Shown: positions 3,622 through 10,759 of the stretch, piece by piece
Layout of the letters: every line of letters begins with the position of its first letter
How positions within the stretch are numbered: position 1 is the stretch's first letter
Origin: a bacterium
GTDB taxonomy: Bacteria; Patescibacteriota; Patescibacteriia; JACPHY01
Assembly (NCBI GenBank): GCA_030646955.1
Contig: JAUSKM010000018.1
Coordinates: 1-36,067 of the forward strand
Reading direction: 5' to 3'
Length of the DNA: 36,067 nt
Notes under the pieces: generated by a model
Database searches by the model: none
Seen by the model: the letters and a program-made list of their open reading frames with translations, nothing else
Told to the model about the DNA's origin: nothing
Made by a program: the position numbers and the translations under genes

Positions 3622-3882
3622 CTAGGTATAGAAGACATTTTGGACCTCCGGGCAACGCTCCCGAATCATCTTCTCAACACCGAGTCCGAATGTCATGACG
3701 CTCATGGGACATCCCTTGCAGGACCCCACGAGTTCGAGTGTGACGTTCCCCTCGCCGTCCACCTCCACGAGCCGCGCGTCGCCCTCGTGCGCCGCGAGTG
3801 ACGGGCGCACCTCATCAAGGATCGCCGTGACTGCGCTACGGATGGCATCGCCATTGATCGTCGTGGCTGGTGGCTTATCCAT
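3622..3882 (-). CDS. NifU C-terminal (Nfu) domain protein
   Basis: LVEVDGEGNVTLELVGSCKGCPMSVMTFGLGVEKMIRERCPEV (CxxC). Confidence 0.93.
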   Translation of the reverse strand: MDKPPATTINGDAIRSAVTAILDEVRPSLAAHEGDARLVEVDGEGNVTLELVGSCKGCPMSVMTFGLGVEKMIRERCPEVQNVFYT

Positions 3883-4555
3883 AGTATTTTTCGTGATAGA
3901 ACCGGATGAGCTGCTCAATTTCCGGAATGGCATCGGGATTGCCCACGCCCACTTTCAATTTCCGTTGGACGTCTTCCAGCGTCTGCGCGCCTTCGAGGAC
4001 CGCCTCCTCGATATCTTTGTCGGTGATGTTGAGGCGATCATCCACAACACGCGCGTGTTCCACGATGACACGCTGATGCTGCCCCGACGCGCGGAAGTAC
4101 TCGTTCGCCGCCTTCCGGAAGGCCTTGTCCGCTAGCACCGAGCAATGGATCTTACGATTCGGAAGCCCCGCAAGCCGCTCCATAACGTGCTGCGGCTTGA
4201 TTTGCAACGCGTTCGTCAGTTGTATGCCGCCATCCTCCGTGCACATGACGGAGAACATGGACGTGGATGCAATTGCAGAACCGCAACCAAACGTTTGCCA
4301 CTTGAGATCAGCGATACGATCGGTTGTGGGGTCCACCTTGATCCAAATCTTCATCACGTCGCCGCACGCTGGCGAGCCAACGATACCAACCGCATCGAAC
4401 TGGCCTTCCTGGGGATCTTCCAGGAGGAGGTTGCGCGGATGGAAGAAGTGATCCTTCACAATCTCCGAGTACACCCACTTCTCGCCGGTGCGCTCGTTCA
4501 CGATTTCGGCATCCTGCATCTGTGTGCTGGTGAGTTTCTTGTCAGTTGGATGCAT
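3875..4555 (-). CDS. iscU: IscU/NifU-N Fe-S scaffold with C-terminal BFD-like domain lacking cysteines
   Basis: GSPACGDVMKI, WQTFGCGSAIASTSM, KIHCSVLADKAF; tail LNITDKDIEEAVLEGAQTLEDVQRKLKVGVGNPDAIPEIEQLI. Overlaps nfu by 8 nt (ATGGATAA). Confidence 0.9.
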   Translation of the reverse strand: MHPTDKKLTSTQMQDAEIVNERTGEKWVYSEIVKDHFFHPRNLLLEDPQEGQFDAVGIVGSPACGDVMKIWIKVDPTTDRIADLKWQTFGCGSAIASTSMFSVMCTEDGGIQLTNALQIKPQHVMERLAGLPNRKIHCSVLADKAFRKAANEYFRASGQHQRVIVEHARVVDDRLNITDKDIEEAVLEGAQTLEDVQRKLKVGVGNPDAIPEIEQLIRFYHEKYYG

Positions 4556-4558
4556 ACG

Positions 4559-5851
4559 TTACTGCTTAGTTTCCCAGTGCGGGCGCTGACCAAGGAGCGC
4601 TTTTGCGGTTTCGGACGATGCACCGCTGCCAATGGTCTTCTTCGCATGCATCTCCAGACGCACCGGACTGATAGCGCGAAGCCGCTCGGTAATTGGCGGG
4701 AGCTGATCCAGGACATACGCGAGATCTTCCCGCGTCGTCTGCCGGCCCATCGTGAAACGAATGGATGCGTGCGCGTACTCGTACGGACGGCCGATGGCCA
4801 GAATGACATGCGATGGATCCAATGTCTGCGAGTCGCACGCGGAACCGGTTGCGGCGGCGATGCCATGCGCATCGAGATACAGCAGCATCGCCTCGCCCTC
4901 GATGTCTAGAACGGAGACGTTGATGTTGTTTGGCAATCGCTCCGTCGGATGCCCGTTGAGGACGATCTTTGGAACACGCGCCTGTATCTCATTGATGAAC
5001 CAATCCCGTAGCTCCGTGAGCCGTGTGCATTCTGCCTCGCGCTCCTCCGCCGCAATGGCCAGCGCGGCAGCAAAGCCCACCGCGCCCGCCACGTTTTCCG
5101 TGCCGGACCGCAGTCGCTGTTCTTGGCCGCCACCAAAGACCAATGGCTCCAGCTTCACGCCGCGCCGCTTGAAGAGCACGCCGATGCCCTTGGGGCCGTA
5201 GCACTTGGATCCGTTAATCGTAAGCAGGTCTACACCAAGCCGCTGGACATCGAGATCCAGGAATCCTGTTGCCTGGCATGCGTCCGTGTGCAGAAATGGA
5301 GCATCCGCCCGCTTTCGACCGTGCGCCTCTTTCCACTGGTGGATTGCGCGCGCAATGGCCGCGATGGGCTGGATGGTCCCGATCTCGTTGTTCGCGTACA
5401 TAACGGACACCAGAACGGTGTCCTCACGCAGCGATGCGACCACCTGCTCCGGGGTGACGCGGCCATCCTCATCAACCGGCAACACGGTCGCAGAAAACCC
5501 CTCGTGCTTCGCAAGGTGCTCCACGGGATTGAGCACCGCATGATGTTCGATCGCGGTGGTCACCAAATGCTTGCCGCGCCCTGCGTACGCACGCGCAACG
5601 CCGAGCACCGCCATGTTGTCAGATTCCGTCCCGCTCGCGGTAAAAAGAAGCTCCTCCGGCGCACACACGAGCACGCGCGCAATACCCGCACGCGCTTCAT
5701 CCAGCGCACGCTTCGCGCGGCGGCCTGCCGCGTAGAGAGACGACGGATTACCATACTCCTCGGTGAAGTACGGTGCCATCGCCACCACAACACGCGGGTC
5801 CGTGGGCGTCGTGGCCGCGTGATCCAGATAGACAGTGCGTGATGTATCCAT
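4559..5851 (-). CDS. nifS: Cysteine desulfurase
   Basis: VYLDHAATTPTDPRV, TASGTESDNMAV, HTDACQATGFLDLDV, INGSKCYGPKGIGVL, ATGSACDSQ. Confidence 0.96.
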   Translation of the reverse strand: MDTSRTVYLDHAATTPTDPRVVVAMAPYFTEEYGNPSSLYAAGRRAKRALDEARAGIARVLVCAPEELLFTASGTESDNMAVLGVARAYAGRGKHLVTTAIEHHAVLNPVEHLAKHEGFSATVLPVDEDGRVTPEQVVASLREDTVLVSVMYANNEIGTIQPIAAIARAIHQWKEAHGRKRADAPFLHTDACQATGFLDLDVQRLGVDLLTINGSKCYGPKGIGVLFKRRGVKLEPLVFGGGQEQRLRSGTENVAGAVGFAAALAIAAEEREAECTRLTELRDWFINEIQARVPKIVLNGHPTERLPNNINVSVLDIEGEAMLLYLDAHGIAAATGSACDSQTLDPSHVILAIGRPYEYAHASIRFTMGRQTTREDLAYVLDQLPPITERLRAISPVRLEMHAKKTIGSGASSETAKALLGQRPHWETKQ

Positions 5852-5855
5852 AGCA

Positions 5856-6302
5856 TTACGGAGATGCGGTCTTCGCGTGCGCGGTCGCAATGTCCGCGAG
5901 CGTCATGTGGTCCAACTCCTGCTCAATCGTCTGCTGCAAGCGCTGGAAGAACGACCGCGATACGCACGACTGCTCGTGCGGGCAGGCATCGTCCGTCTGC
6001 GCGTCCAGGCAATGCGCCAGGACAATAGGGCCTTCCAACGCGCGAACCACTTCGCCCATCGTGATCTCGCGCGGCTGACGGGCAAGGCGATATCCGCCTG
6101 TGCGCCCGCGTGAGCTCACCACAAGTCCGGCGGCACGGAGCGCGCGCACCAGCTCCTCCAAATATTTTTCCGGCAGCTCCAATCGCCCCGCAATCTCGCG
6201 GATACTCACCGGCGCGCCATCGCATACACGCCCCAATTCCGCGATAAACACCACGCCATGGTGCGACCGGCTGGAGATCTTGAAGTTTCGATGCATTTCC
6301 AC
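5856..6302 (-). CDS. Rrf2-family transcriptional regulator (IscR-like); GTG 6302 or ATG 6296
   Basis: VSIREIAGRLELPEKYLEELVRALRAAGLVVSSRGRTGGYRLAR; CLDAQTDDACPHEQSC cysteine triad. Confidence 0.93.
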   Translation of the reverse strand: MEMHRNFKISSRSHHGVVFIAELGRVCDGAPVSIREIAGRLELPEKYLEELVRALRAAGLVVSSRGRTGGYRLARQPREITMGEVVRALEGPIVLAHCLDAQTDDACPHEQSCVSRSFFQRLQQTIEQELDHMTLADIATAHAKTASP

Positions 6303-6319
6303 AGTGATCCTGCAATAAG

Positions 6320-6325
6320 ATTATA
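6320..6325 (-). promoter_or_regulatory. Consensus -10 TATAAT of the Rrf2 operon (proximal promoter)
   Basis: attata on plus strand, 18 nt upstream of the GTG start. Confidence 0.55.
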
Positions 6326-6329
6326 CAGA

Positions 6330-6355
6330 AAAACCCTAGAGTTTACTAGGATTTT
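6330..6355. promoter_or_regulatory. Candidate Rrf2/IscR-type operator inverted repeat
   Basis: AAAACCCTAG-agttta-CTAGGATTTT: 10-bp arms, one mismatch, immediately upstream of the TATAAT box. Confidence 0.55.
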
Positions 6356-6358
6356 TCT

Positions 6359-6387
6359 ACTGTACCCGAAATCCCTAGTCCTGTCAA
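6359..6387 (-). promoter_or_regulatory. Distal promoter TTGACA-N17-TACAGT of the Rrf2 operon
   Basis: tgtcaa 6382-6387 and actgta 6359-6364 on plus strand. Confidence 0.55.
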
Positions 6388-6482: not shown

Positions 6483-6513
6483 CAAACACTCCATCCGATG
6501 GATGGAGTGTTTG
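6483..6513 (-). terminator. Strong hairpin terminator
   Basis: caaacactccatc-cgatg-gatggagtgtttg, perfect 13-bp stem, downstream of the ORF ending at 6522. Confidence 0.7.
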
Positions 6514-6521
6514 GAGCGTAT

Positions 6522-7379
6522 TTACCGTTGGGGATCATCAAAACGGAGGTCTTCTTCAATCTCGGCGAGGGTCTCTTGGATTTCGGAGAAAATCTGGCGG
6601 CCTTCGTCCAGGAGATCGTGCACTTCGTCGCGGCTGCCGGTCCCCCTCCCAAAGCAGTTGGCCAACGAATCGAGGACGCGCATGCAGAAGATGCTTGCTT
6701 GACGATAACCCATCGCCGCAACCTCCAGCTCCACTGCGTGCTCGCCGAACGAGCTGCGATAGCCGAACGCGATCTTCGCGGGGATGAGGAGCGCGTTGAT
6801 GCTCACGCGGTGGCAGTCACGGTCACGATTCGACTGTTGCTGATGGAGAAGCTGGCGCGACCATCGCTCGCACGCACACGCCCATTTGAATGCCGTATTA
6901 TACAGCGCGTCGTCGGAGAGCTCTGGCATGTCCTGCTCAAACTCCGCAAGCGCCGACGCCTCCTGTCGCTGCTCCCACGCACGTGCACGCGTTTGCCCAC
7001 TGTCCCACTCCTTGTTGTGAGGAGCGGACGCATCGCCATCGCACGCATCGCAGGACTCTCGGCGATCGCGGAGCTGTGCTGCTAGTTTTTCCTCCATGCG
7101 CGCGGGGTCATCCATCGCCACGCAGAACGCATCAAAGTCGTTCTCGAAGAGCTTGCGCATTCCGGGATCGTACGCAAAAAGCGTCGCGTACTGCTCGCGC
7201 CGAACGGCATCATCATCCGCTGGCGGACGTGACTTTGCATCACGTTCTGGAGCTCGCGGGTGTAGGAGCTCGCGGAACGCTTCCTCCATCACGTCGGAGA
7301 CATCGCGACGGAAAAAGTACGGCCGCATGTCGCCACGCCGCGGACCCTGCTCAAAGAGGCGATGCTGTGTCTGATGCAT
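6522..7379 (-). CDS. Hypothetical protein, helical/charged
   Basis: Long ORF in operon with upstream genes; start at MHQTQHRLF; no family recognised. Confidence 0.65.
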   Translation of the reverse strand: MHQTQHRLFEQGPRRGDMRPYFFRRDVSDVMEEAFRELLHPRAPERDAKSRPPADDDAVRREQYATLFAYDPGMRKLFENDFDAFCVAMDDPARMEEKLAAQLRDRRESCDACDGDASAPHNKEWDSGQTRARAWEQRQEASALAEFEQDMPELSDDALYNTAFKWACACERWSRQLLHQQQSNRDRDCHRVSINALLIPAKIAFGYRSSFGEHAVELEVAAMGYRQASIFCMRVLDSLANCFGRGTGSRDEVHDLLDEGRQIFSEIQETLAEIEEDLRFDDPQR

Positions 7380-7392
7380 ACGTATTCGCACG

Positions 7393-7584
7393 TTACGATG
7401 CTTTCCCTGGCAGGATACCATGATTCGCCACCATGCGATATTGCTGCAGGAATGTGTCAATACGCTCACGCGCCGCCATGTCCGTGCTGGCGGTTTTTCG
7501 GATGCGTGACTTCTCTCTCCGGATGTACTTCCGGATGCTTCGCGGGAGTGATGCGTGTGGCATGAATGTGGCGATCGTTAACAT
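7393..7584 (-). CDS. Small basic protein, unknown
   Basis: LPRSIRKYIRREKSRIRKTAS...RIDTFLQQYR; start overlaps the stop of the upstream nuclease gene. Confidence 0.65.
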   Translation of the reverse strand: MLTIATFMPHASLPRSIRKYIRREKSRIRKTASTDMAARERIDTFLQQYRMVANHGILPGKAS

Positions 7585-8429
7585 GGGAGTGTTGCTGCAA
7601 CTTCACGCTGAACCCGATCAATCGCCTGTTGGGACAATCCCGTGCGTGTCATGAGCTCTCGCGTTGGCATCCCGGCAATGTCATGGCACACAATAAGCCC
7701 AGCGTTCGCAAATGCAGTGCGCATGACTGTGCTGACGGATCGTAACACGGTAACTGGATAGAGGTGCTTTTCGATGACGAGCTGCTGAAGCCCCGCGCCC
7801 TTGGGATACTCCCATCCGATGATGCGCATACCCTTATACTCGCCAAACGCAATACCGTCCCCCGTCACTTTGGTATTACACACGACCCAGCACGCCGTGA
7901 GCTTCGTTGTATGTTTGCCATGTCGGTACGCCTCGCGGAGATCTTCGTACCGCGCCCACGTCGCCATGATGTCCTTCAGGCGCACATAGATACCCGGTGC
8001 ATTGCGGTACTTTGCTTCCACCATGGCCGTCATGCTGCCCTTACGCGCGATGACATCTACCTCGTGCTCCACCGCCATGCCGGGCATGAGCGGAGGGAGG
8101 TACGCGTCGTATCCGTGCGCACGGAGCACCGCGGCAACGTAGTGCTCGAAATCGTATCCGGCGGGGCCGAGGCGACGCATGGCCTCCTTCAAGGAATACC
8201 GTACTTCCGTGCTCCGCTCGCGTCGCTGTCGAAGTGCACGCAGAACAAGCGCATGAATCTGTCGCGTCGTCATCCCGTCGCGGACATCCCGCGCAACATC
8301 CTGCGCGACGCCCCGTGCGAGCGATTTCGATGCTCCAACATGTCGCACGCTACGCTCGAGCTTGCGAATATCAAGCGGCGCGTAATCCCCGCTTGCCTTC
8401 ACGATCATGGTGCTGGTCTGTTGCGCCAT
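7578..8429 (-). CDS. ATP-cone domain fused to Mrr-like (PD-(D/E)XK) endonuclease-like domain
   Basis: N-term IVKASGDYAPLDIRKLERSVRHVGAS...ARDVRDGMTTRQIHALVLRAL (ATP-cone); then FEHYVAAVLRAHGYDA...VEHEVDVIARKGSMTAMVEAKYRN. Confidence 0.82.
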   Translation of the reverse strand: MAQQTSTMIVKASGDYAPLDIRKLERSVRHVGASKSLARGVAQDVARDVRDGMTTRQIHALVLRALRQRRERSTEVRYSLKEAMRRLGPAGYDFEHYVAAVLRAHGYDAYLPPLMPGMAVEHEVDVIARKGSMTAMVEAKYRNAPGIYVRLKDIMATWARYEDLREAYRHGKHTTKLTACWVVCNTKVTGDGIAFGEYKGMRIIGWEYPKGAGLQQLVIEKHLYPVTVLRSVSTVMRTAFANAGLIVCHDIAGMPTRELMTRTGLSQQAIDRVQREVAATLPC

Positions 8430-8445: not shown

Positions 8446-9453
8446 TTACTTGTCCGCCTGCAAGGAAGAAAACCCGATGCACTGTACCTCGATTTCGATG
8501 GGAAGGCCGAGTATATGCTGCGCGCGCTCCTGCACGGTGCGTGCAACTGCCATGACATCCGCCGCAGTAGCACCACCGAGATTCATTGTGAAATTTCCAT
8601 GAACGTCGGAGATACGCGCGGCACCGCATTGAAACCCTTTGAGCCCCAACCGGTCCACCACCCAGCCCACCGCAAGCCGCCCATCGCGGACTGCGGTACG
8701 CCACGAATCCGATGACAGGGCATCCAATCGCGCTTCTTGCTCCGGCGTAAGCGTCCGTACGTCAATATTCTTGAAGAGACACCCGGCAGATGGCTTATCG
8801 TGCGGCTGCGTGGTGCGCCGCTGCTGGAGTACCGTGTCCATCGCATCACGACAACGCGCGGGATTGTCCGACGTCAGCCGCAACAAGACCGAGAGCACGA
8901 TGGATGTTGGGTGGTCTTTGAAATACGAATGTCGATATGTGAATGCGCAGTCCTGCTTCCCAAGCGTGTGCACGAGGCCCGTGGTCCCTTCCAGTACTTC
9001 CACGGTCTCCACCGCGTCACCCGTCTCACCACCAAAACACCCCGCATTGCCTCGCACGGCGCCACCGATGGTGCCAGGGAGCGAGATTGCCCACACAAAC
9101 CCCATCAGCCCCGCATCGCCTGCCGCGCGTGCAACGGCGGCGGACATCGCACCGGCGCCAGCCCGCACGCGCGTGCCGTCAACGCGAATGTCGCGCATCG
9201 CCATCTGAACCACGACGCCATCAAATCCCGCATCCGCAAAAAGGGTGTTGGATCCCCCGCCCAGCACGCACCATGGAACACCATGTGCCTGCACCGCAGC
9301 AATAGCCGCTTGCACCTCTTCGGCAGTTCGCGCATCAACAAACCAACGCGCGGGTCCGCCAATGCGGAAGTTCGTACGCTTCGCCATCGGCTCATGCTCC
9401 CGCATGCGAGTGCCGAAGATTTCACGGAGTGCGGTAGTTACTTGCTCGTGCAT
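8446..9453 (-). CDS. murB: UDP-N-acetylmuramate dehydrogenase (UDP-N-acetylenolpyruvoylglucosamine reductase)
   Basis: KRTNFRIGGPARWFVDA, VLGGGSNTLFADAGF, SLPGTIGGAVRGNAGCFGGE, PSAGCLFKN, GNFTMNLGGAT. Confidence 0.95.
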   Translation of the reverse strand: MHEQVTTALREIFGTRMREHEPMAKRTNFRIGGPARWFVDARTAEEVQAAIAAVQAHGVPWCVLGGGSNTLFADAGFDGVVVQMAMRDIRVDGTRVRAGAGAMSAAVARAAGDAGLMGFVWAISLPGTIGGAVRGNAGCFGGETGDAVETVEVLEGTTGLVHTLGKQDCAFTYRHSYFKDHPTSIVLSVLLRLTSDNPARCRDAMDTVLQQRRTTQPHDKPSAGCLFKNIDVRTLTPEQEARLDALSSDSWRTAVRDGRLAVGWVVDRLGLKGFQCGAARISDVHGNFTMNLGGATAADVMAVARTVQERAQHILGLPIEIEVQCIGFSSLQADK

Positions 9454-9463
9454 ACCCACGCCG

Positions 9464-10759
9464 TTACGAAACACCAGACACGAGCGCGCGAGCAACCGCA
9501 TCGTTACGTCCAGCACCGAGACAGAGTACGACGTCCCCCGGCAGCATCGCGCTCCGCGCTCCTGCAATGGTTGCATCCACGTCGCCACTCGCAGTCGCGT
9601 TTCTACCAATCGCAGTAGCAAACTCTGCGCTCGAAATGCCGCCCTGCGTCTCGCGAGCCGATCCAAAAATATCCATGACGAGTACCTGGTCCGCACCGTC
9701 GAACGCGCGTGCAAAATCATCGCGCAGCGCGATCGTGCGCGTGAACGTATGCGGCTGGAACACCACCACGATACGACGATCAGGGAACCGTTCACGCGCC
9801 GCGGCGATGGTCGCACGCACCTCCGTAGGGTGGTGGGCGTAGTCATCCACGATCACCGCACCGTGCGCCTCACCGACGATCTCAAACCGACGCTTCGATC
9901 CCCGGAATGTCGCGAGCGCGGCGAACGCCGTTGCACGGGAGACGCCCAATATTTCCGCCGCGGCAGTCGCGGCCAGCGCGTTCCGGCGGTTATGCGCGCC
10001 GGGAAGGAGCAACACGAGCGCTCCAGGATCGTCCTCCACCGCGGGAACGCGGATGATACGACAACGCGCAGCGCTCGCTGCTGCTTCCGCTTCCGCATCA
10101 CGCTCATGGATGACGAGGAATCCGTCCGTCGGGATGCGCGCGATAAACCGATGGAATGCCGCAGCGTACGCCGAAGGCGTGGCAAAGAAATCTGGATGAT
10201 CGTACTCAATATTCGTCAGAATGACGCCGTACGGCGCGTAGTGCTGGAGCTTATCCTGATACTCGTCTGCCTCCAGGACCACGAGGTCTGATGCGCCCGC
10301 GCGCGCTGCGCCACCCAGCTGTGGCACTGCACCGCCGACGATCACTGAGGGGTCGCGCCCCGCAGATACCAGAATCCAGCCGAGCATGGCCGTCGTGGTG
10401 GTTTTTCCATGCGTGCCGCAAATTGCAATTCCGCGTCCCGCATTAAAAAGCATCGCGACGGCCTCCGCGTAGGTCACCACATGCAGACCGCGGCGGAGCG
10501 CCTCGGCAACCTCCACGTGTGTATCATCATACGCGCTGGATCGCACGACGAGATCCACCGTGGTGGGTACGTGGTCCGCATGAAATTCCTCGACGTACGG
10601 AATACCGTTCGCCGCAAGCGTTTCCTGGGTGAAGTAATGCTCTGCAGTGTCGGAGCCGGAGACGAGCACGCCGCGCGCGTGAAGTAACTGCGCGAGTGCG
10701 CTCATACCAGCACCCTTGATTCCGATGCAGTACACGCTCCGAACAGCGGTCATATCCAT
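9464..10759 (-). CDS. murC: UDP-N-acetylmuramate--L-alanine ligase
   Basis: YCIGIKGAGMSALAQLL, ICGTHGKTTTTAMLGWIL, EADEYQDKL, VDDYAHHPTEVRATI. Confidence 0.96.
   Translation of the reverse strand: MDMTAVRSVYCIGIKGAGMSALAQLLHARGVLVSGSDTAEHYFTQETLAANGIPYVEEFHADHVPTTVDLVVRSSAYDDTHVEVAEALRRGLHVVTYAEAVAMLFNAGRGIAICGTHGKTTTTAMLGWILVSAGRDPSVIVGGAVPQLGGAARAGASDLVVLEADEYQDKLQHYAPYGVILTNIEYDHPDFFATPSAYAAAFHRFIARIPTDGFLVIHERDAEAEAAASAARCRIIRVPAVEDDPGALVLLLPGAHNRRNALAATAAAEILGVSRATAFAALATFRGSKRRFEIVGEAHGAVIVDDYAHHPTEVRATIAAARERFPDRRIVVVFQPHTFTRTIALRDDFARAFDGADQVLVMDIFGSARETQGGISSAEFATAIGRNATASGDVDATIAGARSAMLPGDVVLCLGAGRNDAVARALVSGVS

Follow-up and report, generated by a model that had tools for sequence, protein, structure and literature searches.

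Judged from its sequence and modeled fold, gene 1 (7578..8429, minus strand of the window, i.e., of the whole 36,067-nt stretch of DNA analyzed here) is a member of the existing AF1548/ATP-cone family, which is already annotated, and its architecture is not new. The original prediction had presented this gene, together with a small basic protein (gene 2) and an orphan protein (gene 3), as an undescribed module built of a nucleotide-gated nuclease and small partners. The trio is confined to one genus, and the finding has no importance as a three-gene module of a new kind. We moderately favor the explanation that gene 1 is a stand-alone, nucleotide-controlled DNA endonuclease of the Hjc/Mrr type that would act in repair or recombination; genes 2 and 3 would then be mere neighbors.

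Domain architecture and structural matches of gene 1

Gene 1 encodes 283 amino acids from an ATG at position 8429. An ATP-cone spans residues 8 to 74 (8208..8408; Pfam model PF03477 and alignment) and is followed by a Hjc/Mrr-like PD-(D/E)XK core at approximately residues 91 to 223 (7761..8159; 1y88 profile and conserved residues) and by an AF1548-like C-terminal domain (PF22357) at residues 224 to 279 (7593..7760; Pfam and structural model), all on the minus strand. By sequence, the cone is a marginal match (26.1 bits versus a cut-off of 25.8 for PF03477, and 28.8 bits in the genome search). The C-terminal domain scores 31.7 bits versus a cut-off of 23.9, which bears out the small helical domain that had been predicted there; it consists of four short helices and appears helix-hairpin-helix-like by eye. 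In Foldseek searches, the AlphaFold model of gene 1 (pLDDT 93.9, pTM 0.88) matched both the cones of NrdR and ribonucleotide reductase and structures of the PD-(D/E)XK type, as the original prediction would have it. The gene 1 family profile also aligns to the host genome’s own NrdR-like protein.

The closest solved structure is that of AF1548 from Archaeoglobus fulgidus (PDB 1y88), which is recovered both by sequence (phmmer, 9.7e−26; profile, 5.8e−56) and by fold (Foldseek, 6.2e−15; TM 0.88 on target). The homology covers nearly the whole AF1548 chain, spanning the nuclease core and the C-terminal domain. The 199 residues of the solved chain start with the nuclease core and include no ATP-cone, whereas gene 1 carries one. 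The Hjc and Mrr_cat families have the same order of Glu, Asp, and ExK residues as gene 1, but the gene 1 core falls below the cut-offs of both models (17.5 bits versus 21.1 for Hjc, PF01870; 19.3 bits versus 21 for Mrr_cat, PF04471), and the protein has an extra cone and an extra C-terminal domain. Comparison of two species within the genus shows purifying selection on gene 1 (73% amino acid identity, dN of ~0.19, and dS of ~1.9, which is near saturation).

Predicted catalytic and nucleotide-contact residues

The nuclease motif residues of gene 1 are E95, H122-E123-x-D125, and E138-x-K140, with the order typical of PD-(D/E)XK enzymes: a conserved Glu in helix A, an Asp in strand 2, and (E/D)xK in strand 3. 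Residues E95, D125, E138, and K140 are kept in 61 to 63 of the 63 homologues, and E123 is likewise essentially invariant. In AF1548, a predicted endonuclease that the GOS authors called a restriction endonuclease in 2007, the residues predicted to be catalytic are D38, E51, and K53 (PMC1821046). In the profile alignment, D125, E138, and K140 of gene 1 correspond to residues 51, 64, and 66 of the 1y88 chain, at a constant offset of 13 from those positions, and the two proteins thus share the same D, E, K triad. The near-invariant active site, together with the match to 1y88 by sequence and by fold, confirms the PD-(D/E)XK core.

The cone of gene 1 has the same fold as the cones of NrdR and ribonucleotide reductase but is fused to a nuclease rather than to a Zn ribbon or a reductase. 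In the cone of Escherichia coli NrdA, Lys9 and Lys21 contact phosphate (PMC12662201). Their equivalents by alignment, K11 and K23, are kept in 54 and 56 of 61 gene 1 homologues, respectively. T55, the equivalent of NrdA Thr55, is conserved in the gene 1 family, position 81 is occupied by Lys or Arg, and H59 aligns with NrdA His59 in an alignment to NrdA made by eye. The adenine-contacting residue of NrdA, Glu15, is replaced by Ala17 in gene 1, and this position is Glu in 41 of 61 homologues. Given a score above the PF03477 cut-off, a matching fold, and contact lysines that are mostly kept, the ATP-cone stands as predicted, and nucleotide binding by it is plausible on these residue comparisons.

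Genomic setting of the three genes

The host genome, very probably that of a member of the Patescibacteria (CPR), comprises 1.03 Mb in 45 contigs and is 94% complete. Immediately upstream of gene 1, with a 16-nt gap, lies murB (8446..9453), which is preceded by murC, a Mur ligase gene (9464..10759), both on the minus strand. A terminator-like hairpin follows gene 3 (6483..6513, minus strand); its stem of 14 pairs, 3-nt loop, and T-rich tail indicate that the terminator predicted at this place is real. Because murC and murB lie 16 nt upstream, the hairpin comes after gene 3, and an Rrf2-containing gene set is found beyond the hairpin, genes 1 to 3 probably share a murC-murB-1-2-3 transcript. 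The latter set, located downstream on the same strand (window positions 3875 to 6387), is of the Isc/Suf type, with an Rrf2 regulator, a cysteine-desulfurase-like class-V aminotransferase, and a NifU-like protein, and it has a sigma-70-like promoter match at positions 6387 to 6359.

Gene 2 (7393..7563, minus strand) encodes a very basic protein of 56 amino acids when read from the conserved ATG at 7563, as indicated by its relatives (the protein begins with MPHASLPR here, MANASLPR in the same-genus genome G001, and MSRSRLPK in the sister-genus genome G002). A longer open reading frame starts at 7584. The small basic protein that had been predicted is therefore present, but not at the 63 amino acids assigned to it. 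Translational coupling to gene 1 would rest on a start that is not conserved: the 7-nt overlap between the two genes requires the upstream ATG at 7584, which the relatives do not use, and the conserved ATG leaves a gap of 14 nt after the gene 1 stop (16 nt in G001). Gene 3 (6522..7379, minus strand, ATG at 7379) is present downstream of gene 2 as the predicted orphan of about 285 amino acids, in an open reading frame of 315 amino acids.

The gene order of the window, murC-murB-gene 1-gene 2-gene 3, is retained in G001, where murB was identified by eye. In G002, which belongs to a sister genus of the same family, the order is murB-methyltransferase-gene 2-gene 3, and no gene 1 was found in the genome. 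The complete trio occurs in one genus only (two genomes). In the 16 other genomes with gene 1 among 95 relatives, and likewise at the ~60 loci inspected, gene 1 has neither of the other two genes next to it, and relatives of genes 2 and 3 also occur alone. The co-occurrence in other genomes on which the original prediction hinged thus holds within the genus, in G001, and fails outside it. We therefore reject the three-gene module, given that synteny of the trio is limited to one genus and that the sister genus has genes 2 and 3 side by side but no gene 1 with them. On the best reading, genes 2 and 3 are bystanders and not obligate partners of gene 1.

Genes 2 and 3 in other genomes

The window copy of gene 2 matched no Pfam or NCBIfam model. 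Its family is defined by the motif L-P-[KR]-S-x-R-K-[YF]-[IL]-R-x-E-K-x-[RK]-I-R and is thinly spread across CPR (14 of 95 relatives and 15 of 380 phylum genomes). Elsewhere, gene 2 relatives (L063-L074) adjoin xseA/xseB-like genes (exonuclease VII), translin-family genes (L067 and L070), an RtcB/archease-like pair recognized by eye, or a gene for a YchF-type GTPase. Gene 1 is present in more gene 2 carriers than expected, both among the relatives (6 of 14; Fisher’s test, P = 0.02) and across the phylum (5 of 15; P = 0.009), in statistics that ignore shared ancestry; with one genome per genus, the P value is 0.055. In genomes outside the own genus that have both genes, the two are located on different contigs. 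We regard this co-occurrence as a weak lead.

Close relatives of gene 3 are found only in G001 (55%) and G002 (48%), and remote ones occur in a few CPR genomes, some beside a translin-family gene and others among varied genes. Translin-family (PF01997) genes directly adjoin such remote relatives at L075:4700-6122 and L077:2481-3727. Gene 3 has no Pfam match. Its C-terminal half (approximately residues 184 to 310 of the 315-aa open reading frame) is modeled as a four-helix bundle resembling S23, the 23S rRNA intervening-sequence proteins (IVP; 2rld and 2gsc), with a Foldseek probability of 0.99 to 1.0 and TM of 0.65 to 0.86 on target, but at an E value of just 0.08. Unlike these proteins, gene 3 has an additional N-terminal half; outside the C-terminal half, the N-terminal half included, the model is poor (mean pLDDT of 66.8).

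Distribution and neighbors of gene 1

Homologues of gene 1 are found in 18 of the 95 relatives, a count that leaves out a cone-only match in G093. Of 380 genomes sampled from the phylum, 36 gave near-full-length matches; weaker matches in this set of 380 are mostly the cones of ~150-aa open reading frames that resemble NrdR. A search with a narrower alignment gave 20 related loci, mostly from Uhrbacteria, Azambacteria, and other Patescibacteria or Parcubacteria. Gene 1 is patchily distributed across the phylum.

The immediate neighbors of gene 1 are varied (~50 loci, 94 neighbor proteins) and mostly housekeeping genes, with no constant partner. The most common neighbor is mnmA (8 of 94), followed by a dinB-type polymerase (4), deoxyhypusine synthase (2), and PIN (2). 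In CPR genomes other than that of the host, mnmA adjoins the cone nuclease at L158, L164, L167, L171, L173, L179, L183, and L184.

Outside Patescibacteria, occurrence was viewed through plasmid records. Plasmids of Pontibacter actiniarum (WP_237151220.1) and Criblamydia sequanensis (WP_176454803.1) encode homologues of the same size that align over 95% of the query, cone included, at 30 to 33% identity. Both are annotated as “ATP cone domain-containing protein,” in agreement with the earlier surmise that ATP-cone/nuclease fusions may be annotated elsewhere. A search of 50,697 phage records gave no homologue, and neither did three IMG/VR scans, which were made with short peptide patterns that reach close relatives only. 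Literature searches on ATP-cones combined with Mrr or restriction endonucleases returned nothing on the gene 1 family, and in the papers searched, no function beyond that of a predicted endonuclease (GOS) is assigned to the AF1548 family.

Proposed function of gene 1 and alternative explanations

From its domains, conserved residues, family, and unlinked neighbors, we infer the catalysis, nucleotide control, substrate, and pathway of gene 1 as follows. The protein would cut DNA as a metal-dependent PD-(D/E)XK endonuclease of the Hjc/Mrr type. Its N-terminal cone would bind ATP or dATP, and the nucleotide pool, acting through the cone, may switch nuclease activity or oligomeric state; the C-terminal helical domain may aid DNA binding or dimerization. 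The likeliest task would be to cleave branched or damaged DNA in repair or recombination, with dNTP status acting as a brake. Of the nucleotide-gated nuclease in the original prediction, then, the domain content holds and the gating is plausible, but the small partners fall away. The points that weigh against this explanation are the marginal score of the cone, Ala17 in place of Glu, the Mrr_cat and Hjc scores below cut-off, and the lack of a direct tie to a repair pathway. A variant in which the cone is a dATP/ATP gate that couples the turnover of DNA with the dNTP pool, with gene 2 acting in trans, seems to us rather unlikely.

We also considered gene 1 as a general substitute for RuvC and rejected this role, because 17 of the 18 gene 1 carriers have RuvC as well. 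The only carrier with no RuvC match is the host genome (94% complete), and 87 of the 95 relatives, the same-genus G001 included, have the gene; the missing match may be due to assembly incompleteness.

Could gene 1 serve nucleotide salvage, breaking down DNA, such as imported DNA, to supply nucleotide pools under the control of an ATP/dATP switch? Nucleotide synthesis is generally poor in CPR bacteria, which counts in favor of this role, as does the near-universal presence of ComEC (94 of 95 relatives). With almost every relative carrying ComEC, its presence says nothing for or against the DNA-uptake role that the original prediction also raised. The two plasmids, from Bacteroidota (Pontibacter) and Chlamydiota (Criblamydia), argue in the same direction, since the gene for the homologue there precedes genes for a beta-CASP MBL protein, for an AMP phosphorylase of the archaeal type (TIGR02645), and for a PRPP synthetase (L108:1972-6597 and L109:7995-12602, respectively), a run that suggests a nucleic-acid recycling cassette; gene 1 of the window, in contrast, follows murC-murB. 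However, the cone nuclease is encoded on just 2 of 116 plasmids that bear the AMP phosphorylase, and the Variovorax phosphorylase cassette lacks it. The phosphorylase is absent from the host genome and present in 2 of 18 gene 1 carriers versus 23 of 77 non-carriers, and no neighbors of the phosphorylase or PRPP synthetase type were seen among the CPR gene 1 loci inspected. A link between gene 1 and the AMP phosphorylase is not supported, given linkage in only two plasmids of other phyla and no co-occurrence in relatives. The scavenging role raised in the original prediction finds a fitting context on those plasmids but not here, and we consider it doubtful for gene 1. That the enzyme processes RNA, as its fold is common to tRNA-splicing endonucleases, is improbable. 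The prominence of mnmA, which acts in tRNA 2-thiolation, among the neighbors would fit such an activity, as would the RtcB/archease-like and translin-family genes next to gene 2 relatives, but the mnmA linkage may reflect shared ancestry, the E...D...ExK constellation is of the metal-dependent DNA nuclease type, and the sequence similarity of gene 1 favors Hjc/Mrr.

Two further possibilities were considered. The name that the GOS authors gave to AF1548 (PMC1821046) and the weak Foldseek likeness of the gene 1 model to the modification-dependent enzymes AspBHI and MspJI could indicate a type II or type IV restriction-like endonuclease. We find this quite improbable, as no methyltransferase or specificity gene lies beside gene 1 in the window, no constant neighbor accompanies it elsewhere, and its conservation within the genus is vertical. 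An anti-phage module, in which the small partners would assist the gated nuclease, is highly improbable, even though the nuclease is of the Mrr type, the trio lies on one strand with one terminator at its end, and the gene 1 and gene 2 families weakly co-occur. Beyond the restricted range of the trio and the separate contigs of genes 1 and 2 elsewhere, PADLOC gave no substantial match for any of the three genes, PHROG gave nothing beyond weak ribonucleotide reductase cones, homologues are absent from the phage and virus data searched, and the mostly housekeeping neighbors of gene 1 form no consistent defence-island pattern. On these grounds, we reject the defence role that had been proposed.

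Implications for the AF1548 family and nucleotide sensing

In the whole host genome (the contigs concerned are C28 and C42), an ATP-cone is detectable solely in an NrdR-like protein and in gene 1, and the ribonucleotide reductase found on C42 has no ATP-cone. Because these two proteins alone carry a cone and the reductase carries none, the question of whether the cone gates the nuclease is a clean one in this organism. To our knowledge, control of a nuclease by a dATP/ATP-gating cone has not been described. The AF1548 family has had a crystal structure since 2004 and, in the papers searched, no function beyond that of a predicted endonuclease, which makes it directly testable. Should the cone indeed gate the nuclease, the dATP/ATP sensing of ribonucleotide reductase and NrdR would be extended to DNA cleavage.
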